Assembly: GCA_009602725.1 (NCBI GenBank)
Contig: WELB01000240.1
Coordinates: 130,438 to 194,437 of the forward strand
From: Spirogloea muscicola
Lineage: Eukaryota > Streptophyta > Zygnematophyceae > Spirogloeales > Spirogloeaceae
Direction: 5' to 3'
Length of the DNA: 64,000 nucleotides
Positions 22,459 to 52,412 of this stretch are shown in pieces (within the stretch, counting starts at the first letter, position 1; each line of letters starts with the position of its first letter). The translations under genes and the position numbers were made by a program. The notes under the pieces were generated by a model. It was not told where the DNA came from. It ran no database searches and worked only from the letters and a program-made list of their open reading frames with translations.

Positions 22459-23249
22459 TCATGGGCCGGGGCGGGTCGAGGTCGGTCAAGGGCCGTGTTT
22501 GTTTCAAATACACGAAATTTTCTTTAAAGGGCCGGTGGCCCGGGCGCCCGAATCTCGGCTGGCCGGCCGGTGGCGGGCCACTTCCGTGGAGACCGTGGAG
22601 TGGCACCGCCGCCATGGCCGCGCCACGGCCCCCCTCCGCCCGCGAGCCTCGGCCGCGCTGGCGGGCCCTCCACGCCCGCGCGGCGGCGGAGGAATCCCGC
22701 AGCCAGCTGCAGCTGCGCTGGATACCCGCAACGGGAGGGGCGGCCCGGCGCCGCCGGGTCCAGCCCCACCCGCCGGCGCCGCAGCACGCCCAGGCCGGCC
22801 TGTATCGCTGGCGTTTGGAGCCCGCCACCGCACGTCGGTCCTGCAGCGCGCGCGAGCATAAAGGCGAGAAGTGCCTGGACGCCATCACTTCTCTCAGCGG
22901 CTTCGCAGCCAGGGTTCGGAGGCCGCCTCCTCCGCCAGCAACTCCGCAGACCCTCACTGCTACACGCGAATCCGTCCGGCCCCGCAGTCGGCTGGTATGT
23001 CTGCGGTCGCTCTTGCCTGTCCATCGTGTCCCACCTCCTCTCCGATGTCCCTCGCTCACCCCTCCCCGTCCCCTCCCCTCTTTCATGTGTTCTCCTTGGC
23101 TCAAGCCCCCCTCCCCCCACCTCTTCGACACTTCCAGTCTGAGACTTGGCCAGTCTGTTGCACGTGTCTCGCCTTTGCATCGCGACACTTCCGCCTCAAC
23201 GTGACAGCTGCGACCTTCCATGAGGTGCAGGTGCTTTGCAGTCTGGATC

Positions 23250-24016: not shown

Positions 24017-24181
24017 CGTTGTTGGACCTTAAATGCAGCATCTGCCATGTTCATGCCGCGCGGCATTTGCATTTGTGATCGCTTGCACCGTGCTGCATGC
24101 CAACGGTGTCAGCAGCGTGAGAAAGCATGTGCTCGAGACTTGACTTGGAAATCACACTCGAATGACTATGTTCCGGTGGGA

Positions 24182-25676
24182 AGGAGTGGCACTCCCAACG
24201 GGGGCAAGGGCTGCGAAAAGCCAGCCCAAAAAGAATTCACAAAGGTTCAGAGGGGCCTAAGAAGAAGGCTCGCCCATAGAGAAAGAGGGGCTGGCAAAGC
24301 CAGCCCAAAAAGAATGGACAATGTCCAAAGCCGAAGAATGAGATGCCGAGGAAGGACTCCTCTACTCTACCAATCACGACAACATACTAGGGAAGCTCAG
24401 TACCCGCGAGTGAGCAACATCAGGTCCAAGTAGCTCGAGGCAGGGAAGGAGGCACTCCGCCGAGACCCGGAGGCAGCGGCCAGAGCGCGTCCTGCGCGCG
24501 TGTGGACAGCGTGGGCAAGGGATCGCTGGAACGATACCGCCAAGCGCATGCGAAAGACCTGGGCGAGCGACCCGGCGGCGTTGAAGCCGGGCAGCGCCCC
24601 GGGCGGACCCGACCGCCGATCAATAGCCTGACGAGCAAGCCGCTGGAGGAGATCCAGCCAGCGGCTGCCGAAGGCCCCGTGAACATCTATCGCCAGGGCC
24701 GCGAACTCATCACCGACCGGGTGATCGGCATATTTTTTCTCTTTTGCCCGGGCTGCCAGGCCGACCGCATGCCCTGCAAACGACGCCGACCTGGTGGGGT
24801 TGCCGGAGTCGTAGCTGTCCGTTGTCACCACATCAGTGATGATGCGGGGACCGCCGCTGGGCAGGATAGCGACCAGGTCGGCGCGCCGGGTGTGCGACCG
24901 GCCGTCCTCGCCCCGCAGGATGGGCATGACTGAGGAGCACTCCACCGCCACCTTGAAGCCCGCCTCTATGAACACCCCCTGCATACCATCGCGCAAAAGA
25001 TCATGGGAAGCGGTCCTCTCGCCTCCGTGGGCGCAACGGAGCATGTGCGCGGCCAGCTCCGCAGGGTCGGCGTGCCGGGCGCCGCACTCGCACTGTGTGA
25101 CACCTGTAAGGCAGGGAGGGAGGAGCCCCAAGAGCCGATGCACCGCCGTCCGGTAGACCTCGTCGGGCATGGTAAGTGCGGCATAGAGTGGGAGCGCTTG
25201 GAGCCACGCCGCCGCCCCAGGGGAAGAGGCGGAGAGAAGCCGAGCACGCCCGCGAACGTCAGACGGAGGGAGAAGCTCCACCGCCTGGTCGGAGGCCGCC
25301 TTCTCGACCAACGCCGTGAAGCGTGCCTGAGCCCGCAGGTCTGGAGTGTGGGCGAGGTGCCGGAAAGGAACAGTCTGCTCGGACATGTTGGGGTGGACCT
25401 GCAGGAGCCTGTCGCGGGCAGTGCGGAGGGCGACTTGGAAGGGGAGTTGGCCTGTCTCCACATCGGCTGCCGCCCGCTCCAGGGCGCGTTGTCCGTGCAC
25501 GAGGAACCTCTGACACATGGGGGCGGCCACCTGCGCCCAGCTTCCCAGGAAGGCCGCCTCACAGACGCGGGCAACTGAGCGGCATCCCAAGCCGCCACGA
25601 CTGATCGGCAGGCTGGCCTGCAGCTGCGCAGCTTGGGTGGTGAGGAACGCCGGGTGCTGCACGAGGGGGTGCTGCA
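24182..25676 (-). mobile_element. LINE copy, 5'-truncated, 1.5 kb
   Basis: Inserted into duplication copy 1: the sister copy reads GGGAAGGGGTTTCAC where this one has GAAGG, the element, then GAAGG again. On the minus strand it runs from a region just past the RT to the LLTRGY stop at 24397, then a 3' UTR carrying a type A variant stem at 24271-24310 and a type B tail ending at 24182. It is the longest LINE copy in the window and its coding part is open. Confidence 0.88.
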
Positions 25677-25677
25677 C
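24397..25677 (-). CDS. LINE ORF2 C-terminal region (zinc finger and endonuclease-like), 426 aa
   Basis: Open from the 5' truncation to the stop. Residues about 25-50 hold LPISRGGLGCRSVARV, the segment that follows the RT domain in many algal and animal non-LTR elements. Around residue 200 there is C-x-C-x12-H-x3-C (CECGARHAD ... HMLRC), followed by HDLLRD, then TRRADLV and IITDVVTTD. These resemble the zinc finger and restriction-like endonuclease that close R2-type ORFs, with conserved Asp residues; this reading is by pattern only. The rest (KKYADHPVGDEF, AIDVHGAFGSRWLDLLQRLA, RMRLAVSFQRSLAHAV, YLDLMLLTRGY) is the block found in every truncated copy here. The RT itself is not in the window. 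Confidence 0.75.
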   Translation of the reverse strand: MQHPLVQHPAFLTTQAAQLQASLPISRGGLGCRSVARVCEAAFLGSWAQVAAPMCQRFLVHGQRALERAAADVETGQLPFQVALRTARDRLLQVHPNMSEQTVPFRHLAHTPDLRAQARFTALVEKAASDQAVELLPPSDVRGRARLLSASSPGAAAWLQALPLYAALTMPDEVYRTAVHRLLGLLPPCLTGVTQCECGARHADPAELAAHMLRCAHGGERTASHDLLRDGMQGVFIEAGFKVAVECSSVMPILRGEDGRSHTRRADLVAILPSGGPRIITDVVTTDSYDSGNPTRSASFAGHAVGLAARAKEKKYADHPVGDEFAALAIDVHGAFGSRWLDLLQRLARQAIDRRSGPPGALPGFNAAGSLAQVFRMRLAVSFQRSLAHAVHTRAGRALAAASGSRRSASFPASSYLDLMLLTRGY

Positions 25678-26480
25678 GAAGGGGTTTCACTTAGCAAGAA
25701 GTACCTCACAGTCGAGCCAAGGGGCATGGAAAACCGTGTCAGGAGAAACAATGACCGTCCAGGCCGGCAAGACCAGAAATGGGAGCCGGGAGAAGCCCTC
25801 CACACCCTTGTTATGCCCGGTCAGGCCGACATCTGGATATGATCTTGGGGCAGGCCATCTGGCACCCCTTGATCCCAATTGCCAGCGTAGCCTGGGACCG
25901 TGTCACGTCCACCACAAACTACCATCACCCGCCATGTAGCCTAGCCGGTTCCTGCCAACACTCCTATAAGTGGTTCCTACCCGTCGAAGCGGGCTTAAGC
26001 TGTTCGGCTTATATCTGGGCTTCCCTTGGAGCGAGTGTTGCGGGCGGCATAATGCTTTCGTCCTCGGATGCCATTCGTGGCACGGGCAGACTGGGAATAT
26101 ATCATGACCTAAGCGGAGCCGGAGGTGCCGTGTTTGCGACTCCTTTGAATGACAGACCAAATGTGAGTCGTTATACTTTCAAGAGTGCCGTCACCTCACC
26201 ATCCTCGTCAGACCGACACAAATGAGCCACCGACGACTTATCGCACGACAGCTAAGATAAGTGTTCGCGTATTCTGGCAGCGTGGAGCCTCTAGACCGCT
26301 TTGGGCACCGGGTTGCAACTCCGACACCCTTGTTCGAGGACCTGAGTCTCTGCAGCGGGTATGCAACTTGTACACCCGGGTCGGCATTCAGTGCACCCGC
26401 ATTGGTACATGCAAATCCAGGCATATAATGTTCTTGGCAGCAATCAGCCAGGCCCCCAGGTTCGCCGTTGGAAACCACCA

Positions 26481-27216: not shown

Positions 27217-27662
27217 TTAGTTTTACAAAGGGCCGTGAAGACTTTTGGCCTTCCGCTTGCCGGCCAGGCCGTGCATCCAAAGCGGGCAAGGCACACTTCG
27301 GAGCATTGGGCCGACCCTTACGCATAGTCTTATTACATCAGCAGAGGCACAAGGGACGCCCTCGACCACAATTACTGGGTCCCCTCGACCTTGAATGAGG
27401 AGCAGGTGGTCGCCAAAAGCGCCCCCGGATCAGGGGTTATTCACAAACACAGCCTGAACATGGAAGAGCTTCTTCTTACAATCAGTTAAGGCTCACAGCA
27501 ACAAGATCACCCACATTGACCTCCTCACCAATGAGGGTCCCAAGCGGCATAGAAGCGATGCCACGGCTCGGGCAGCAGTGGAAGTGGAGTGGGGGCCTCG
27601 CCCCTCCGCCCCACTGCACCGCCGTGCTCGGGCAGGCGCCGGCCTCGCGGACCGCTCCGCCT

Positions 27663-27721
27663 GTTCATTCTTTTTCGGGCTGGTTGTTCCAGCCCCTATT
27701 CTCAATGGGCGAGCACTTTCT
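27663..27721 (+). mobile_element. Tail-only LINE insertion, type A, 59 bp (empty site known)
   Basis: Starts GTTCATTC, stem GGGCTGGTTGTTCCAGCCCC, then TCTCAATGGGCGAGCAC. The target TCCGCCT is duplicated at 27656-27662 and 27722-27728. Copy 1 reads GCTCCGCCTGGCCCC at this point. Confidence 0.92.
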
Positions 27722-27852
27722 TCCGCCTGGCCCCTCGCCGCGCGGCGCGGCCCCGGTTTTTCTTTCCCAGTCATGGGCCGGGGCGGGACGAGGCAGGGCC
27801 GGTGGCCCGGGCACCAAATGTCGGCTGGCCGGCCGGTGGCGGGCCACTTCCG

Positions 27853-27912
27853 TTCCTTTTGGGCTGGCTTCTCCCAGCCACCAGTCAATTCGGCCGCGCT
27901 TTTCCCTTTTCG
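27853..27912 (+). mobile_element. Tail-only LINE insertion, type C, 60 bp (empty site known)
   Basis: Stem GGGCTGGCTTCTCCCAGCC followed by ACCAGTCAATTCGGCCGCGC and a pyrimidine tail. Copy 1 reads CCACTTCCGTGGAGACC; only CG is repeated at the edges. Confidence 0.85.
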
Positions 27913-28575
27913 TGGAGACCGCGGAGTGGCACCGCCGCCATGGCCGCGCCACGGCCGCCCTCCGCCCGCGAGCCTCGGCCGCGCTGGCGGGCCCTCCACG
28001 CCCGCGCGGCGGCGGAGGAATCCCGCAGCCAGCTGCAGCTGCGCTGGATACCCGCAACGGGAGGGGCGGCCCGGCGCCGCCGGGTCCAGCCCCACCCGCC
28101 GGCGCCGCAGCACGCCCAGGCCGGCCTGTATCGCTGGCGTTTGGAGCCCGCCACCGCACGTCGGTCCTGCAGCGCGCGCGAGCATAAAGGCGAGAAGTGC
28201 CTGGACGCCATCACTTCTCTCAGCGGCTTCGCAGCCAGGGTTCGGAGGCCGCCTCCTCCGCCAGCAACTCCGCAGACCCTCACTGCTACACGCGAATCCG
28301 TCCGGCCCCGCAGTCGGCTGGTATGTCTGCGGTCGCTCTTGCCTGTCCATCGTGTCCCACCTCCTCTCCGATGTCCCTCGCTCACCCCTCCCCGTCCCCT
28401 CCCCTCTTTCATGTGTTCTCCTTGGCTCAAGCCCCCCTCCCCCCACCTCTTCGACACTTCCAGTCTGAGACTTGGCCAGTCTGTTGCACGTGTCTCGCCT
28501 TTGCATCGCGACACTTCCGCCTCAACGTGACAGCTGCGACCTTCCATGAGGTGCAGGTGCTTTGCAGTCTGGATC

Positions 28576-31876: not shown

Positions 31877-31934
31877 CCGCAGGCGAGGTGAGCCGGCTGA
31901 CTTCAACGCCGCTGGCTCGTGGGCCCAAGTATAT

Positions 31935-32066
31935 CAGCTGCTTTCTTTCTTTGTGTGCTTTGTTTTCTTAGCGCTTCCTCTGCCCCCCCCCCCCCTTCTC
32001 GTACTTTGTTCATTCTTTTATGGGCTGGCTTTTCCAGCCCCTATCCTCAATGGGCGAGCCCCCTCT
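31935..32066 (+). mobile_element. Tail-only LINE insertion, type A, 132 bp, 9-bp duplication
   Basis: CAAGTATAT is present at 31926-31934 and 32067-32075. The insert starts CAGCTGCTTTCTTTC, includes a run of Cs, the stem GGGCTGGCTTTTCCAGCCCC and TCAATGGGCGAGCCC. It splits the AQVYRMRL codons of the host LINE. Confidence 0.9.
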
Positions 32067-32236
32067 CAAGTATATCGCATGCGTTTGTCAGAGCGTTGGT
32101 CGCTCGCTGGCTAGAACTCCTCAACCTGCTCGCCCGCCACACCATCGCCCGTCGCTTCCATGGGGAGCCGGTCGACTTTCCTGCAGCCGGGTCCCTGGCG
32201 CAAGTGTACCGTATGCGCCTGGCCGTCTCGCCGCAG

Positions 32237-35351: not shown

Positions 35352-35416
35352 GCACTGGGTTTAGGGTTAGGGGTTAGGGGTTAGGGGTTAAGGGTTAGGG
35401 GGTTAAGGGTTTAGCG
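35352..35416 (+). repeat. Telomere-like TTTAGGG/TTAGGGG tract inside transposon 1
   Basis: GGGTTTAGGG followed by several GGTTAGGGG and GGTTAAGGG units, just inside the left end of the transposon. A shorter match (GGGTTTGGGTTTAGGGTTTA) lies at 44129-44149. It is interstitial, as transposon sequence continues on both sides. Confidence 0.8.
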
Positions 35417-35857: not shown

Positions 35858-37864
35858 ATGGAGACTGCTAACCTTTCAGATAAAACCACAGTCGCTGGTG
35901 GCATGAGCGAGAGCGGCGGCGCGCCGACGCCACTCGAACTTCGGTGTGACGAGCAAGACTGCCAGTACGCGATCTACGACCCGTGCAGCACGTGTCATCG
36001 GGAATACTGCGTCAAGCATCTCGATCAGCACGGCAACTGCCGCATGAATGACATTGGGGCACCGCCGCCTTCAAGAGTCGTTACCACGAAGAGTACTACA
36101 GCAGCCAGCACTGCTACAAGTGCGTGCCATTCTTGTCTCGCAACATGTTCCAAGATTGGCCTAGTAGCCTGCATCGTAGACTTACTTTATATCGCAATAA
36201 GTAACATCAGATGTTGGCCGTTGCAGCGTTGTCTCTTGCGCAGAAGAAGAAGATTTGCGACAAGAGGGCTGCCAATCCCCGGATGACGCAAGTCGAGTTG
36301 TGCCGATGGGCGCAAACCAACTTCAACCTGGTCAAGCAGCCGACACAACCGGTCATTTCCGGCATCCTCAAGCGCTCAGCAGAGTACGCGGCCATCGGTG
36401 ATTGCAATTCGGCCAAGCGCCGTGTGAGGAAAGTCAAAGTTCCTGAGATAGATGAGGAGCTTGCAAACTGGGTCATTGCTTGTGAGCACAAGCATGTTCT
36501 GATCACCGGCGAGCTAATCAAGGCAAAAGGGCAAGCACTCGTGGTGGCTCGAGGAGAGGACGTTATCATTCTCCAATGGATGGCTCCAGTCCTTTCTGCA
36601 GCGCCACGGCTTTCGGTCCATCAAAAGTCATGGAGAAAGTGGGTCTGTTGACAGAGCCGCTGTCGCCGCAAGCCTCCCGGGCCTGCGCGCAATCGTTGCA
36701 CCTTTTCCCCTGTGCAACGTTTACAACATGGACGAAACAGGCCTCTTCTATTGCATGGCCGCCGACCGCACCATCGCTCGCCAGCAAATTGAAGGCCTGA
36801 AAAAGAACAAAACGCGGTTCACAATCGCGTTCACATGCAATGCGGACGGTTCCGACAAGCGCGCTCCATTCATCATCGGGCATGCGGATAAGCCCAGCGC
36901 ATTCAATGGCAAGACCGCCCTCGAACTCGGGTTTTCATACAAGCACAACACCAAAGCGTGGATGACTGGGCTATACTTCCGTGAATGGCTCGCTGCCTTT
37001 GATGGAGACATGCTACGACAGAACCGCCATGTTCTTCTTCTCTTGGACAACGCTCCAAGCCATGCAGTCGGCGACCTTGTGACTAAGAGGACGCAGATTG
37101 TCATGCTTCCACCCAGGACCACATCAAAACTGCAATCAATGGACGCAGGTATCTTTGTCAGTTCGGACTCCGAACCTTTGTCAATTCTTTTTGGGCTGGC
37201 TTTTCGCAGCCCTTGCCCCCATTGGGAGTGCGATACTGACAGGCGCATGTTACAAATGGACGCAGGTATCATAGCAAGCTTTAAGAGGCACTACCGCCGG
37301 CTTCACCACCAGCACGCCGTTGATCGCGACGAGGCCCAGGAGACCGACCTTTAGAAGGTCGACCAGCTACAAGCCATGCGTTGGACGCTGCATGCTTGGG
37401 ACAAGGTTGGGCAGCAAACCATTGCCAACTGCTTCAAGCATACAGGTTTGTGGACGGACGAGGTTCCGCGGCCGCCGCTGGTGGCATCCGACGTCGCCAT
37501 TGAGGAAGACATTGTCGGCCTGATAGAAGATCTGCGTGTCCGGGATGCGCTCACCTTGGATGAGCTCTTGGAGCCCGACATTGAGCTTCAAGGATTGCAC
37601 GTCGACTTTGACATTGAGAACGACGCCGAGCCCGTCCAGACGGTGGACGCGCCCGCGCCGGCTGACACGGACATACGGGCGCTTCCTTTGGAGGGGCGGG
37701 GCGCCTTGCCGCTCTCCGAGCTGTCGCCTACATGCTTGATGTGTCGGACGCGAAGCAAGCGACGGCGCTCGCCGTCATCCGTGGCCTTCAACATGACACC
37801 CGCGTTGAGAAAAGGCGGCGGCTCTCGCAGCCACCCATTACCGCCTATTTCTGAGTCGTCATAA
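35858..37864 (+). pseudogene. Pogo transposase with N-terminal zinc-binding segment, broken
   Basis: From ATG 35858 the frame gives a Cys/His cluster (LRCDEQDCQYA, DPCSTCHREYC, VKHLDQHGNC) of AN1-like spacing. A splice probably leads to the frame at 36244. That part holds a pipsqueak/CENP-B-like helix-turn-helix (KKKICDKRAANPRMTQVELC) and a second DNA-binding segment (FSNGWLQSFLQRHGFRS). The DDE core follows: NMDETGLFY near 36728, LLLDNAPSHA near 37044 and LQSMDAGI near 37135, all three acidic positions kept. A frame change lies near 36560, an in-frame TAG at 37352, and a 117-bp in-frame insertion splits the last catalytic segment. Codons resume LQAMRWTLHAWDKVGQQTIA, the usual pogo tail. The zinc segment on a pogo protein is unusual. 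Confidence 0.8.
37154..37254 (+). mobile_element. Tail-only LINE insertion, type B, 101 bp, 16-bp duplication
   Basis: AATGGACGCAGGTATC occurs at 37138-37153 and 37255-37270. The insert contains GGGCTGGCTTTTCGCAGCCC and CCCCCATTGGGAGTGC but then ends in GATACTGACAGGCGCATGTT instead of the CTT tail. With the duplication it adds 117 bp, 39 codons, and no stop. Confidence 0.95.
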
Positions 37865-37946
37865 CGGATTGCTTATGCCAGAGTCCTGTTCAAGGGCGGC
37901 AACCAGACGGCCACGTTGAAGTAGTAATTGCGCACTTAATCATAGG

Positions 37947-38042
37947 CCCCTCCAAACCTTTGTCCATTGTTTTTGGGCTGGCTTTGCCAGCCCCTCTTCT
38001 CTATGGGCGAGCACTTTCCTTTTAGAGTGCCACTTCTTTCTT
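37947..38042 (+). mobile_element. Tail-only LINE insertion, type A variant, 96 bp
   Basis: ATCATAGG is duplicated at 37939-37946 and 38043-38050. The insert has CCCCTCCAAACCTTTGTCC, the stem GGGCTGGCTTTGCCAGCCCC and TCTATGGGCGAGCAC, then AGTGCCACTTCTTTC, combining type A-variant and type B endings. Confidence 0.88.
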
Positions 38043-38503
38043 ATCATAGGGCCATACACTACATTCAATCTTTTCAAGTCACTACGTATAGTCCGCTTAT
38101 GCTGGTCGCGGGGTCAGATGGATGGTCGCGCGGTCTGTACGTAGGTATAAGCTTATATTTGAGAAAAACATATAAAGTATGGAAGTATAGAGGATAATAA
38201 GCTTACGCCACTAAACCGACTCAGTTTGCCAGAATCTGATAACGTTATACAGGATATAAGCTAATGGAAGATGATCTTAGACAGGTTTTACTGTACTCCG
38301 ACCACCCGGTGGGCGACGAATTTGTCCTACTGGCTGTCGACGTCCACGGCGCCTTTGGCACCAAAGGGCTGGACCTGCTTCACCTTGCGCGGCGCGCAGC
38401 GGCCCGCCGCCACGGGCAACAGAGTGAGCAGCCTGGCTTTAACGTGGCCGGGTCCCTCGCTTAGGTCTACCGGATGCGCTTGGCTATCTCTTTGCAGCGG
38501 TCC

Positions 38504-38646
38504 TCCCCCTGTTTTACCATTGCATCCTCAGGCCCCTTTGTAGCTGCTCACCGCTCTTAGGCCCCTCTGAACCTTTGTGAATGCTTTTTGGGCTGGCTTT
38601 TCGCAGCCCTTGCCCCCATTGGGAGTGCCACTTCTTTCTTTCTTCC
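38504..38646 (+). mobile_element. Tail-only LINE insertion, type B, 143 bp, 16-bp duplication
   Basis: CTCTTTGCAGCGGTCC occurs at 38488-38503 and 38647-38662. The insert starts TCCCCCTGTTTTACCATTGC, then CAGGCCCCTTTGTAGCTGC, the stem GGGCTGGCTTTTCGCAGCCC and GGGAGTGCCACTTCTTTC. It splits the codons SLQRSLAFAVHLRAG of the host LINE. Confidence 0.95.
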
Positions 38647-38785
38647 CTCTTTGCAGCGGTCCCTTGCCTTCGCGGTTCACCTGCGCGCCGGCCGCGCTTT
38701 GGCTGCGGCCTCCGGTTACCGTCAGGGCGACGTGTTTCCGCCGTCTAGCTATTCAGACTTGCATCTTCTGACTAGAGGTTACTGA

Positions 38786-39089: not shown

Positions 39090-39735
39090 AGAGCCACTTC
39101 CCGGGCGGCGGCGCGCGCATCATCGCTGACGTGGTCACCACTGATGTGGTCGACCGCTCCAACCCGGGGCTCTCTGCCTCGCGGGCTGGCCACGCTGCGG
39201 CGAAGGCCGCTCGCAGCAAGGCGGCCAAACACGCCGACCACCCGGCTGCAGATGCGTTCGTCCCCCTGGCTGTGGACGTGCACGGGGCTCTCGGGTCCCA
39301 GTGGCTCGACCTGCTGGCCAGGCTTGCGCGGCGCGCTGTGTCCCGCAGTTGGAGTGCCACTTCTCTCTGTGTCCCGCAGGCGCGGTGAGCCGGCTGACTT
39401 CAACGCCGCTGGCTCGTGGGTTTAAGTCTATCGTATGAGATTGTCTGAATCCCTTCAGCGGTCATGGCCCACGCTCTGCATCTGCGTGCTGGCCGTGCTC
39501 TCGCTGCGGCCTCCGGCTTTCGTCAGGGAGACAGTTTCCGGCAGCTAGTCTGTCAGATCTGAGGCTCCTCACTCGTCACTACTGAGTGATCCATCCTCCC
39601 CCTGTTCTGCCATGGCATCTTCAGGCCCCTCTGTAGCTGCTACACGCTTGTAGGCCCTCCGAACCTTTTGTCACTTCTTTTTGGGCTGGCTTTTTGCAGC
39701 CCTTGCCCCCGTTGGGAGTGCCACTTCTTCCTGGT
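39090..39735 (+). mobile_element. LINE 3' fragment, type B
   Basis: Encodes RIIADVVTTDVVDRSNPGLS, SRAGHAAAKAARSKAAKHAD and VDVHGALGSQWLDLLARLAR. After an 18-bp insertion it continues RRGEPADFNAAGSWV and, with shifts, to the LTRxY end at about 39580. The type B 3' UTR and stem follow (39680-39730). Confidence 0.82.
39349..39366 (+). mobile_element. 18-bp tail remnant with 13-bp target duplication
   Basis: CTGTGTCCCGCAG is present at 39336-39348 and 39367-39379. The 18 bases between, TTGGAGTGCCACTTCTCT, are just the last bases of the type B tail. The host LINE codons RRAVSR and RRGEPADF continue on either side. Confidence 0.85.
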
Positions 39736-40801: not shown

Positions 40802-43193
40802 CTACTTGTCGTCAATTCTTTCCGCGGACATGCATGTCGAGATCTTAGCCTGCTTCCTGCTAAGCATGTGTAGAACCGCATCGTTCGCCGCCATATTTTG
40901 CCAACGCTCGCACATCAAGATGTCCTGTTGTGTGAAGCGATGCATTCCTTGTGCAAGGTATCTACCTACTTGCCCTATCAATACAGTCGCTTCATTGTGC
41001 GTTATCCATCGAGAGGGAGGATCATCGGAGTCATCGTCTTCACCGTCGTTGCTTGTTGAGGGTAGGATTTGAGAAACGATCTGTTCATCTGTGAGTGTGG
41101 ATGGAGCCTCAACCTGATTCAACACATCGAATGTCACCATATATGACGATGACAGCATCATTCATGCTTCAACATTCATTCTACATTGCATATGCCATAG
41201 AAGCTTAAGAAGGAAGCATAAGTTGCAAGTGTCACTTACTTCGTCTTCCCCTGGAAGATTAAGATATTCTTCGGCACTGAGCCCATTTGGCCCGAGCTTC
41301 AGGTCGGCGATATCGCGTTCAAGCTCTTGGCAAGTCGGCGGCCTCATCATAGGGCTCAAGTTGATCTTGATCAAGCATGGCACTGTTCTGATCCCACTTC
41401 GGAAGGATGGCTGCCTTCTTCCAGCAGTTTTGGATTATCGCAGCAGGAATCTCCGCCCAAATCGCGACAGTCCATAGAATAGCCTGCATCCATGAAAAGC
41501 CACCAACTTCAGTACACACTTCGATGTCACAAGCATGGAATCCAATCAAACCAAAAGAAAGATTGGATCCTACCTTATAGATGGCTTATCTTCGTTGAGG
41601 GGGTCGCTGCACGGTGTATCATTTGCCAAGCCGCTCTGCGTGGACTCGGTAGTCCATGTTGTCTCATCCATGGAGCGCAATTCCCACTTCACCAATCTGG
41701 ACTTGTAGCGAGACTTGAAGGATGTAATGATCCCTGCGTCAAGTGGCTGGACTATTGAAGTTGTGTTGGCAGGCAAGAACACCACGGTGACATGTGACAA
41801 ACGAGCGGACTTCAAGCCGTGCACTTCCATAATCTCCAGCTCAAGAGCATGACTGCTGGCATTGTCAAGCAGTAGCAAGATGCATTCTTCACGCTTCTTC
41901 ATGTCATTGTTGACATTGTGCAACCACTCCCGGAAAATCTGCATTGCAAATAGCAAGTTGCACATACACAATGCGGATATGAGTGTAACGACGTCAGCAA
42001 TACCTGCAAAAGTGAAATTGTACCACCATCTGCATGTCTCGTATTTGGTCCAAAGCAATAGACGACATATACAACATATCTGGATTGGACACAAGCGCAT
42101 GGACTGACCTCTCCGGTCATCCATGCGCTTGTGTTGTGTCGGTAATAGAACATCTCCTTTGGTTTGAAACCTTCAGGGAAAGCTCGCGGACGCGCTGCTT
42201 TGGTGATGAAGACTGGCCGCATTCGTAGTGAACCACTTGCGTTGGTACAAAATCCAATTGTGAAGCGGTCCTTTTCAGCTTTCCCACCTCGCACAGATCC
42301 TGTAAATCACCAGAACACCAACGTTGAGGACAACGGGAAGTACAATCTTTGGTCACCAAACCAACACATGAGGCTGTGCGAGCATCATGCTTTCCCGACC
42401 CCTTACCGGTGGCGTTGCATCTAGCTGGCTTAGCCCTCCAAAAATGTCCAGTCTTGTCAAAGTTAAAGACAGTGTTGGCTGTGAAGCCTCCCTCCTCGAT
42501 AATCAACGGTACAGCTTGCCTTGCTAACTCAACCCCCCCTGGATCTGCTGATTGTGCCTCTCCATGTAAATAGTGAAGCTTGATCTTATGCCTTCGTTTG
42601 AAATTTGAGAGCCAGCCTCGGGAACCAGTAAGCCCATTGATCTTGAACATCTTAGCAAATTTGCATGCCATGCCCACAAGCTGGTCGTCCGCCACGTGTT
42701 GCTTCGTCTTGCGCCTCTGCAATGATTCACACCAATGTTCGAATCAATCAATCAATCATATGAGTTGCTATGCATATGATTTATCCCACTTCTCTGGCGG
42801 ATATGCACATTAGTGCCATGGGCTTGGATTGTGTGATTGTATCATGAGCATGAGCATGAGCACGGGCATGAGCATGCGTCAAGCAGCTTGTGAAATGTGA
42901 CTCACGTCCTCAAACCATCTAAAGGTGGCAGCTTCCACGTCCTTCCATTTTGGTTCCTTATGGCGCATTGTTTTGAAAGTGCTCTCGGCAACGTTCAACC
43001 ACCTGGTCGCCTCTTCGAGGAAGCGGCACACAACGACTCGACTGATCTGTTTCTTCAATGTCTTCGATGCTTCTGTAGCTATCTGGTCTTGTGTCATGGA
43101 TGGATTGTCCCTCTTCAGCTCACAGATACGTTTGCGGTCCAAGTCAGTAAACATGACCCTAACATCTCTCTTCCTCGTTGCTTGGCTAGCCAT
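40802..43193 (-). CDS. Pogo transposase (CENP-B HTH plus DDE), 6 exons
   Basis: Minus-strand exons: 43193-42906, 42716-42407, 42299-42109, 41938-41574, 41483-41240, 41113-40802, all GT-AG with matching phases (about 500 aa). Exon 1 (from MASQATRKR) carries a pipsqueak-like helix-turn-helix (DLDRKRICELKRDNPSMTQD). Exon 2 carries the CENP-B-type segment (GLTGSRGWLSNFKRRHKIKL) and the first catalytic Asp (VFNFDKTGHFW; most relatives have DET, here DKT). Exon 4 carries LLLLDNASSHA and IVQPLDAGIITSFK. Exon 5 shows a clear protein frame (AILWTVAIWAEIPAAI, NCWKKAAILP) that is out of phase with both its splice entry and its own 3' part (LERDIADLKLGPNGLSAEEY), implying two compensating single-base shifts or a misread junction. 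Otherwise it looks coding. Confidence 0.8.
42844..42878 (+). repeat. GAGCAT hexamer microsatellite
   Basis: ATGAGCATGAGCATGAGC-type units with one GGGC variant, located in the first intron of the transposon 2 gene. Confidence 0.8.
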
Positions 43194-44470: not shown

Positions 44471-45300
44471 TACCAGCTAATGCTCGACCAGCTTTCTGAT
44501 GCAACGCATGAGCTCGCTGCAGACGAGCTGACACTCGACGTCGCAAGAATGACAAGTAGAAGAAAGTGCTCGCCCATTGAGGATAGGGGCTGGAAAAGCC
44601 AGCCCAAAAAAGAATGAACAAAGTACGTGAAGGGGGCCAGGGGAAGCGCTAAGAAAAACAAGCACAAGAAGAAATGAAGCAGCTACTAATCACTCAGTAA
44701 CCCCTGCTAAGCAGCCGCAGATCAGAGATGCTAGGCTCCTGGAAGTGGGTGCCCTGGCCCTGAGTGATTCGTAGCAGCTATGCTTCTTGTACTTGGTTCA
44801 TTCTTTTTTGGGCTGGCTGTTCCAGCCCATATCCTCAATGGGCGAGCCCTGGCCAGAGCCAGAGGCAGCAGCCAGGGCTCTGCCGACAAGTAGGCTGCCG
44901 GCGTGCCCATCTGAGCTGGAAGCATAGCCTCACGTCGAGCATATCGCATTCTGCACACTTGGAAGAAGTGAGCATATCCCAGACTTGCAATATTCTCAAG
45001 TAGGGTAGAGAAGAGGGGCTGGCAAACCAGCCCAAAAAGAATGGACAAAATCCAAAGAGCCAAAGAGGCCGAAGAAAGAAAGAGCTTGCCCATAGAGGAT
45101 AGGGGCTGGAACAGCCAGCCCAAAAGAATGAGCAGAGTACAAGAAGCCCAAGAAGAAAGAAGGCTCGCCCATAGAGAAAGAGGGGCTGGCAAAGCAAGAA
45201 GAAGGGGGCCAGGCGAAGCACTAAGGCGAAGCACTAAGAAAGAAGCACACAAGAAGAAACAAAGCAGCTATTAACTACTCAGTAACCCCTGCTAAGCAGT
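44471..45300 (-). mobile_element. LINE 3' ends, mostly type A, minus strand
   Basis: VSARLQRAHALHQKAGRALA (type D relative) at about 44480-44560, then a type A end whose stop is at 44697. The coding part runs to 44880 but is split by a plus-strand tail (44760-44845). More type A and A-variant tails follow at 45006-45040, 45087-45130 and 45165-45200, and a 3' UTR to 45300. Confidence 0.72.
44760..44845 (+). mobile_element. Tail-only LINE insertion, type A, 86 bp, 9-bp duplication
   Basis: GCCCTGGCC occurs at 44751-44759 and 44846-44854. The insert begins CTGAGTGATTCGTAGCAGC, which is the LINE stop codon and start of the 3' UTR, then the stem GGGCTGGCTGTTCCAGCCCA and TCAATGGGCGA. It lies opposite in strand to the LINE it entered. 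Confidence 0.9.
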
Positions 45301-49600: not shown

Positions 49601-52412
49601 CTGATGCACAAGCATTGTATGTATCTGACGCTGTGCACCCTACTGCTCTGCTTCAAGCCTCTAGGCATGCTGCAAAGAAGAAGCAGAAGCAGAGGCTCAT
49701 TAGCTTTATAAAGTACTTGAAGTGCGATTGCTTGCAGGACCAGGGATCCTGAGGATACTAGCACTGCTGCACTGGCTTGGTCCTTGAATCAGGTAGCTGG
49801 AAAACCAACTGATGGGTCCGTGCATTCGTGCAGGGACATAAGTGCCAACAATCTCACAGGACCCATACCTTCTTGCAGCAGCAAGCGTGTGAAAATATAG
49901 TAAGGAATGCTCCGCTCTTATCCCTTGTGCTACATCATCAGACATTGGAAGATTAAGAACAACTTGCCTTGCTTTCTTGTGATGTCCTTCTCGGACTTTA
50001 ATGTGCGCTTTGTCAGTCAAACACAAGGCTGCTCACCCTCTCCTTTGTCTACTGTGTCAGTCCAACCGTTTTAGATTGCTTGAGAGCTTCTATGTGCAAG
50101 GGTCAAATTGGTCATTCAGCATGCCGGATGCTATGATATGGTTACTGCAGTTCTATGTGGACATCAAGCCTATCAACATTGGCTCCCTGTAATGTCGGAG
50201 TGACCATAATCTGCCAGATCATCTCTTACTTTGCAGCTATGGTCAGAATGAAGCTCTCTGCGGTGCTGATGGTTTACCTTCTTGTCCACCACCAAATACA
50301 ACTCGAAGTGATAGTCCAACTAGGCGAAGCCCACCAGTACGGACATTGAGATCTCCTCTGCATGCTCCTGCTACTTCACCAATCACTGTGCAACATGGTA
50401 CAGTGGGTAAAGCTGCTCCACTATCAGCTCTGGCTATTGCAGCTATTGCTATCAGCACAGTCATTGTCCTTTTGGTACCTGCTGGCATTCTGCTCAAGAT
50501 CTCAGCTCGGAGGCGGAGGCAAGAGCAAGAGCTCATTGATCAACATTTTGGTCAAGGTGAAAGAGGACTCACACGACCACTTGGGCTAAGCATAGGCTAA
50601 GGAAGCAAAGTACTCAAGATCAGAGCTTGCAAAAAGCCGTGTAGAAAATCTTTGACCCAGTGACGTTCTTACTTGGTCTTTTTCTTTCTCAGCCTTTTGT
50701 GGATACGCATTCAGTGTCGCACAATTGGCTGATGTCCACATAGTACACGGAGTGGTTATGACTTTCACTAGGAAGCAATTAGGCAACTTCTTTGAGGACA
50801 GCATAGCAGACATCTCATTGTTCTGTTTTTGGATGCCAGGACTACCCCTTGTACAGCAAGAAGGCCAGATGCCTTACGAAGCTCTGCAAAGAGCAACCAA
50901 CAACTTTGCTATGGACAGAAAAGTTGGGAGAGGTGGCTTTGGCGATGTGTACCTTGGAGTTCTCCCAAATGGCGACCAGGTCGCTGTGAAGGTCTTGCAC
51001 CTGATGGAAGATTATACACAGGCACATGTAGCATTTGAGGCAGAGGTGGCAATCATCAGCCAAATAAATCACCGCAATCTCGTCAAAATTGTGGGTCACT
51101 GTGCCTATGATCGTCAGCGGTTACTTGTATATGAGTTCAAGGAGCAGGGAAGCTTGCTCGACCGATTGCAGGGTTGGTCAAGTCGAACCCTATATTGCCT
51201 TACTGCAGCGACCGTGTTTTGATTATAAGATGCTATCTGTGAGTCTGAAGCTTAGACAGCAAGACATTTATCCAACACTAGGCATCTTTGCTGCCTAACT
51301 GGTGTTCATAATGTTCAGGTAGTGCGCCTCACCTCACGTGGCCAGTACGGGTCAGGATAGCCCAAGGAGCCGCAAAGGGACTGATATATCCTTACAATGA
51401 GCAATGCCTATACTCTTGACAATGTGATACTTGCAAAGTGGAGTTTGTCAGAAATGTCAATGAGCATGGGACTCACCTCATTGAGGCATCTTGTAGAGCA
51501 GTCGTCATTCAGGAATTATGCAGCTTGCGGCCCACAGGGCCAAGCTATTACTCATTGCACTCCCTTGACAGGAAGACCTGCACGTACTTGCATGAAGGTT
51601 GTTCACCCCGCATAATACATCGTGATATAAAGCCAGCTAATATCCTACTGAATGCAAACTTTGAACCAGCAATTGCTGACTTCGGTCTTGCAAAGCTGGT
51701 GCCAGAAGATGTGATCAACATCTCAACAAAGGTGTGCATCTTTGCCTTCCCTAGCTTTTCGATGAACTTGATGGGATTCTGGTGTCATGAGATTCTAAGC
51801 ATTGACAGAGACCGCATTGCTCAGTGCGCTCATAGGAGCAGTATGTTTGTCGCAGATGTTTGGAACACCTGGCTACATTGCGCCAGAGGTAGAATCTGGC
51901 AAAGTGGGAGACCAAGTAGATGTCTGGAGTTTTGGAGTTGTCCTCTTGGAGCTCGTCTGTGGCCTTCGGTCTGCTGGTCACCAAGGATTACTGAAGCAGG
52001 TATGCTTAATCTTGACTCAAGCTGGCTTCCACGCTAGAAAGGTCTGACGAAGTCCACTAAGCCCTCTACTGATGACAAGGATTGGGAACAATTGTAGCTC
52101 ACAGTATGCTCATGTTCTGCTTCGTTCTCTCATTTCGGCTTGTCAATGATGCACGCGTTGCAGGTCAGAGAAGCGTTGGCAAGGAATGAGGTTGAGAACG
52201 TGTTGGACCGGAGGATCAGAAGCACGGTAAATATTGCAGAAGCAAGAACTTTCCTCCTTGTGGGACTACTGTGTTTGGCAGATGATCCTGAATTTCGACC
52301 AACCATGCGTGCAGTGGTTCAACACCTTTGTGGCATATACCCTTCTCCCCTTCTTGAGGATGTCCTGCAGACTAGCACTTCCATTTCTGGCCTCGAATCT
52401 TCTTCCTCATAA
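46604..52412 (+). CDS. LRR receptor-like kinase B, 18 exons, 765 aa
   Basis: Exons 46604-46682, 46849-47032, 47167-47253, 47450-47524, 47705-47770, 47954-48022, 48171-48239, 48592-48660, 48966-49037, 49175-49258, 49464-49580, 49834-49899, 50237-50556, 50840-51172, 51319-51385, 51584-51731, 51856-51999, 52164-52412; all phases agree. Signal peptide [15 protein letters not shown] to about residue 26; LRRNT with [14 protein letters not shown]; about ten LRRs, most on single 66-84 nt phase-2 exons; [13 protein letters not shown] cap; membrane helix about 406-433; juxtamembrane RRRRQEQE. The kinase starts near 475: GRGGFG about 482-487, AVK Lys about 503, HRDIKPAN with Asp about 600, DFG about 618-620, [10 protein letters not shown], and a C-lobe Arg in [10 protein letters not shown]. 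All catalytic residues are present, an RD kinase. It should be a plasma-membrane receptor; the ligand is unknown. Copy A is its decayed sister. Confidence 0.93.
51386..51583 (+). other. U12-type AT-AC intron in LRR kinase B
   Basis: Donor ATATCCTTAC, branch site TCCCTTGACA and acceptor CCTGCAC, 198 nt. The donor and branch fit the minor-spliceosome consensus and the branch lies about 13 nt from the acceptor. Splicing gives AKGLMYLHEG, the conserved AKGL.YLH motif of plant receptor kinases. Reading on without it meets TGA at 51417 before any GT appears, so no GT-AG alternative works. Confidence 0.9.

Follow-up and report, generated by a model that had tools for sequence, protein, structure and literature searches.

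The window analysed here is a 64-kb stretch of a 153-Mb genome (471 contigs), and at positions 38504–38646 of its forward strand we found a 143-bp, 5'-truncated fragment of the 3' end of a LINE, assigned to family A and ending in the 3' terminus CTTCTTTCTTTCTTCC. The fragment is bordered by a perfect 16-bp target-site duplication, CTCTTTGCAGCGGTCC, whose left and right copies occupy 38488–38503 (+) and 38647–38662 (+). It sits in what is left of the C-terminal reading frame of an older LINE (38294–38782, +), recognised by alignment with amino acids 1249–1359 of P0001. Joining the flanks gave one block of 111 columns with 1 gap and 71% identity, and the same alignment was split by 54 gap positions when the insert was left in place.

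The first-pass annotation had listed this and four other tail insertions with target duplications, and all five were present, with exact duplications of 16, 10, 9, 8 and 8 bp. A family-B tail insertion of 131 bp (31936–32066, +) lies between copies of CAAGTATATC at 31926–31935 and 32067–32076, which measure 10 bp and not 9 bp as first recorded. An 86-bp insertion with a family-B-type tail (44760–44845, +) is flanked by the 9-bp sequence GCCCTGGCC at 44751–44759 and 44846–44854, and a 96-bp tail insertion (37947–38042, +) by the 8-bp sequence ATCATAGG at 37939–37946 and 38043–38050. The shortest, a 58-bp insertion consisting of the hairpin and 3' end only (27664–27721, +), has TCCGCCTG at 27656–27663 and 27722–27729; this duplication is 8 bp, corrected from 7 bp. 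The lengths of 16, 9 (at 44751) and 8 bp given earlier held, and the description of the duplications as long did not, since only one of the five exceeds 10 bp. Flank joining restored a continuous LINE alignment at two of the five sites, the focal one and 44760, where the insertion splits a LINE remnant and a 38-amino-acid alignment was recovered. At 31936 it improved a weak LINE alignment only, and at 27664 and 37947 no LINE frame surrounds the insert. In the 37947 insert the hairpin is of family-C type, and the 18 bp that come after it (38025–38042) match the family-A end exactly; the insert is possibly a chimaera of the two LINE families.

A tail profile search detected 38 tails in the window, in agreement with the high density noted initially. 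One subfamily tail 30-mer had 3146 matches in the genome at up to 2 mismatches, 7 of them in the window, where their density is roughly five times the genomic mean. These tails include family-A-type 3' UTR and tail sequence at 39594–39732 (+), 86% identical to the focal copy, and, on the reverse strand, a family-A tail at 24181–24256 (−) situated 7 bases behind a family-C tail at 24264–24325 (−). The latter follows a family-C LINE frame (24397–25686, −), a 3' part of 429 amino acids whose identity to frames at other places in the genome, the longest of 1433 codons, is 99–100%.

To evaluate the duplications as a class, we reduced 48 distinct copies with an exact family-A tail to a young set of 43 and compared them with 1806 mismatched pairs of left and right flanks. 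The copies dropped were L036 and L044, which are copies of one another, and L013, L017 and L038, in which long N runs lie on the 5' side of the LINE copy. Both L036/L044 and L017/L056 share copy and flank, suggesting that they are haplotype or assembly duplicates. Junction-anchored duplications of at least 6 bp were seen in 27 of the 43 young copies and in 16% of the mismatched pairs; at a minimum of 7 bp the values were 23/43 and 6.5%, and at a minimum of 10 bp 10/43 and 0.4%. The longest duplication seen was 22 bp, and none of at least 14 bp occurred among the 1806 mismatched pairs. When the last four letters of the tail were excluded, 21/43 young copies still showed at least 6 bp, against 173/1806 mismatched pairs. 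In a wider, older sample, duplications of at least 8 bp were found in 40/226 copies (17.7%) versus 5.2%, an excess smaller than in the young copies. Target duplications as a class are therefore beyond chance, and the young set does not bear out the possibility, raised in the first-pass annotation, that most copies lack them. The 16 young copies in which a duplication of at least 6 bp is absent do count against the explanation that we favour below.

Family C provided the coding capacity of the parent element. Six genome matches gave reading frames of 1386–1433 codons at 99–100% identity, and the 1433-codon single frame, measured stop to stop, contains a reverse transcriptase (RVT_1, E = 2.3e-13). 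The C-terminal domain is predicted to follow the order a-b-b-b-a-b, at a mean pLDDT of only 58.5, with a KX2KY motif in the second helix. Its best seven PDB matches were all R2, and K186 of the nuclease is present in at least 90% of alignment rows; PDB searches with the single sequence and with the C-terminal profile returned no match, nor did Pfam for this domain. A Cys-His knuckle, CX1CX11–12HX3C, is complete in five of the eight rows that reach it (in two the first Cys is missing, and one begins downstream of that residue). Near the N-terminus two C2H2-like motifs could be discerned by eye, with Pfam E-values of 0.025 and 0.056, below the cut-off. Searched at E ≤ 1, neither the family-C frame nor the 179-amino-acid frame before it showed any APE family, a result that covers family C as far as the start of locus L058. 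By its reverse transcriptase, the predicted R2-like nuclease at its C-terminus and the lack of an APE match, the parent looks like a LINE of the broad R2 group, which encodes a restriction-like endonuclease (RLE). R2 itself was rejected, as the young copies are dispersed over many different flanks on many contigs and insertion specific to 28S rDNA was not encountered; the window contained no rRNA. The L1 clade and RandI/Dualen were likewise set aside, as no APE domain was found in family C.

Insertion sites were rich in CTT. This trinucleotide occurred within 24 bases to the left of 31 of the 43 young copies, compared with 18, 19 and 18 of 43 in three outer windows and 30% of random 24-mers; AAG occurred in the same interval at 8/43. 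Moreover, in 9 of the 43 young copies the insertion point is no more than 10 bp away from the 3' end of a resident tail that runs in the same direction, a placement shared by 0.68% of random positions and 3.1% of CTT positions (p = 6e-6 and a roughly seven-fold excess versus the latter). As this background was taken from the window and from sequence flanking the young copies, it controls for local clustering partly, not fully. The resident tail at L048 is a partial match, and with the remaining eight cases the excess over CTT-matched sites persisted (p = 5e-5). Without the nine resident-tail cases, CTT was found in 22/34 copies versus 12, 12 and 12 in the outer windows. CTT also stood at the start of 19 of the 27 duplications, but mismatched pairs gave 230/291; the signal is biased by the duplication search itself and was withdrawn. 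With tail letters excluded, CTT was no commoner at the duplication start in true pairs (13/21) than in mismatched ones (96/173), and pairing between RNA tail and target thereby loses direct support. The preference for CTT and for tails may reflect such pairing or a plain site preference of the nuclease.

The first-pass annotation had left two origins open for the short fragments, a separate SINE using the same tail or a LINE whose reverse transcriptase is of very low processivity, and the distribution of 5' ends bears on both. The tail profile gave 332 matches in the window and fetched loci, of which 229 passed filters for length, N content and duplicates and 227 could be assigned a boundary. 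The 5' ends of these 227 copies have a median of 128 bp, with extremes of 22 and 649 bp, and we observed no fixed 5' start among them: the fullest 4-bp bin contains 11 copies, and a smooth distribution gives as many in 58% of simulations (P = 0.58). Longer copies run into the LINE frame (45/56 of those above 240 bp, as against 0/107 of those up to 120 bp). Such continuity favours truncated LINEs in the SINE-versus-LINE comparison that the annotation had proposed. A SINE with the LINE's tail, mobilised by the LINE protein, would suit the many fragments of 50–150 bp, and there are precedents for SINEs that share a LINE's tail, among them a Chlamydomonas element ending in (CTTT)n (in the available text of PMC3747384). 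The absence of a discrete start, the entry of longer copies into the frame and the lack of any tRNA or any Rfam family at gathering score in the 64-kb window give no sign of one, the check for a Pol III body consisting of this tRNA and Rfam scan of the window. Even the 22 of 79 copies above 180 bp that have no frame match looked by eye like last-codon LINE ends or tails behind older tails, and we regard a separate SINE as hardly credible. In family A itself, exact matches to young 30-mers fell from 823 in the genome at 21–50 bp from the 3' end to 284 at about 100–130 bp, 56 at about 560–590 bp (61 at up to 2 mismatches) and 1 at about 2.1 kb, where the probe was drawn from a single copy. As the tail 30-mer may be common to sister subfamilies, this drop overstates truncation. 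The 47 young family-A copies (45 measured, 2 censored) have a median of 140 bp, with four above 600 bp and the longest at 2161 bp, and no full-length family-A copy was seen; the pattern is ordinary, at the short end.

An enzyme with intrinsically very low processivity, whose random fall-off sets the length of each insertion, would account for median lengths of 128–140 bp and for the passage of only about a tenth of young family-A copies beyond 575 bp (4/45 above 600 bp; one censored at 581). Constant fall-off, however, described the family-A lengths less well than a declining hazard (Weibull shape 0.76, likelihood ratio 7.5), in a fit that had no access to copies below 38 bp and in which N runs censored two others; only L044 was dropped from this set, the length of L017 was taken from its duplicate L056 and four other lengths were reset by hand. 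The long, nearly identical family-C frames also speak against such an enzyme, with the proviso that families A and C may differ. The 5' junctions suggest a different cause. Microhomology averaged 1.85 bp at 20 clean junctions against 0.69 bp under a null that allows chance extension on both sides (a simpler control, 0.35 bp, omits chance extension on the other side), and 11 of the 20 had at least 2 bp where 16% was expected (p = 8e-5). Among the 27 duplication-bearing young copies, five had 3–7 unaligned bases at the 5' junction and two had 1–2. Microhomology above chance suggests premature capture of the cDNA end, which, given also the behaviour of the zebrafish element ZfL2-2 described below, would explain truncation better than weakness of the reverse transcriptase does. 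A very low processivity is thus not needed, and we consider it unlikely. A further reading sees many of the short tails not as separate insertions but as the outcome of tandem duplication, recombination or template jumping. It would explain why head-to-tail tails are common, why nine of the 43 young copies adjoin the 3' end of a like-oriented resident tail, and how the 37947 insert came to join a family-C hairpin to a family-A end. At L029 (11 bp), L018 (10 bp) and L019 (8 bp), however, the duplication covers bases of the resident tail together with flank beyond it, and at L032 (22 bp) it falls wholly inside the resident tail. Since these duplications consist of bases of the resident tail or flank, the four copies are nested insertions, as expected of independent events and not of template jumping, and we hold the by-product reading to be very improbable.

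The fragments are, with high probability, 5'-truncated insertions that target-primed reverse transcription has made from a set of LINEs related to one another, here families A, B and C. This agrees with the initial reading of tail-only insertions, and is supported by the common 3' end, the continuous 5' ends, the duplications, the microhomology at 5' junctions, the CTT-rich sites and a parent with a reverse transcriptase and an R2-like nuclease. In such a scheme, the LINE protein would bind its RNA, perhaps through the tail hairpin, and open target DNA at CTT-rich sites on the strand matching the element, where the RNA tail might pair with the target. Reverse transcription would begin at the extreme, pyrimidine-rich 3' end of the RNA and stop within a few hundred bases in most events. 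The cDNA end would then be joined across the break, often at microhomologies of 1–6 bp, leaving a short target segment duplicated. Truncation would probably result from early capture of the end and not from weakness of the reverse transcriptase.

The inner tail hairpin GGGCTG/CAGCCC, predicted at 38590–38609 (+) in the focal copy, is common to most tails. In an alignment of 34 of the 39 non-redundant tails (five were left out by choice), none of 5 pairs showed two-sided change; because the sequence of the inner stem is conserved, covariation gives evidence neither for nor against the hairpin. An outer helix of 7–8 bp encloses it in families B and C (family-B tails; L058, 5346–5411). Across 139 tails, this helix was favoured over shuffled sequence in B and C and weakly in A, and it was not favoured in the 44 unclassified tails. 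The focal tail folds unremarkably (z-score −0.23); the scores of a B tail, the C tail and an unclassified tail were −2.5, −4.1 and −2.0.

Retroposition of tails alone is an established phenomenon, and the parent element here looks like a little-described relative of the insect R2 element in a green alga or plant. L2 LINEs carry an APE nuclease, unlike the R2-like nuclease predicted here. The L2 element ZfL2-2 nevertheless resembles the present one in 5' truncation, seen in most of its copies, and in 5' microhomology, reported at about 50% of its 5' junctions; its insertions lengthen upon loss of end-joining genes (available sections of PMC2666801). The same text gives about 80% microhomology at 3' junctions, whereas here the 3' signal was no better than in mismatched pairs. 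Known RLE-encoding LINEs comprise R2, R4, NeSL, HERO, CRE and Utopia, HERO holding many non-specific families (PMC4640811 and PMC5678591, in the portions at hand). With these the present element shares a single frame, a reverse transcriptase, a putative C-terminal Cys-His knuckle, complete in part of the rows, and a restriction-like nuclease with KX2KY; it differs in its dispersed insertions and in a knuckle spacing of CX1CX11–12HX3C versus CX2–3CX7–8HX4C as given in the excerpt of PMC5678591. Zepp and ZeppL of Coccomyxa and Chlamydomonas are comparable as green-lineage LINEs that accumulate in nested clusters, but Zepp belongs to the L1 clade, and most of the fragments sampled here are short and scattered across numerous contigs (PMC3446292, PMC8226300, from partial text). 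Stringent-type LINEs have a similar 3' end, with a conserved hairpin ahead of short terminal repeats (partial text of PMC3747384), although the inner stem here is conserved in sequence, so that covariation is no proof of it, and a SINE partner was not found.

Two features are more unusual, namely an R2-like lineage in a host that is probably green and the preference for the tails of resident copies (9/43). The genome contains 24 matched pieces of SBP-box genes, a family not known outside green plants and green algae. A 2013 table for the green lineage lists only L1, RTE, RTEX and RandI LINEs, as far as the accessible text of PMC3747384 goes, and in the open-access literature we found no paper on a restriction-like endonuclease LINE in a green alga or streptophyte. 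We tentatively suggest, as a reading that we ourselves find rather unlikely, that an RLE-only, R2-like LINE without site specificity in a green plant or alga uses its own tails as preferred landing pads through RNA-tail pairing and so builds nested arrays. Were this true, every short insertion would be a new target and nested tail arrays would fill the genome. Standard truncated target-primed reverse transcription explains the fragments and removes the supposed new kind of retroposon. What remains of value is an R2-like LINE not targeting rDNA and a large natural set of recent junctions, which allow tests of target choice and 5' capture outside animals.

Other features of the window were recorded alongside. 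Remnants of DDE_1/Tc5-type transposases lie at 36518–37354, 41570–42172 and 42117–42743. Inside the first, Tc5-like frame an exact 16-bp duplication (37138–37153 and 37255–37270) surrounds a 101-bp insert, a LINE tail cut at both ends with extra bordering bases, which is not a plain 3'-tail insertion. The segments 22582–22881 and 27908–28207, about 5.3 kb apart, and their neighbouring blocks are 94–99% identical, apparently through recent duplication. The window starts with an unbroken run of 122 A (1–122), and a short GGGTTAG/GGGTTAA array at 35357–35411 is possibly an interstitial telomere-like repeat. A kinase-domain exon (Pfam PK_Tyr_Ser-Thr) occupies 50656–51222, and the frame downstream of it appeared kinase-like by eye.
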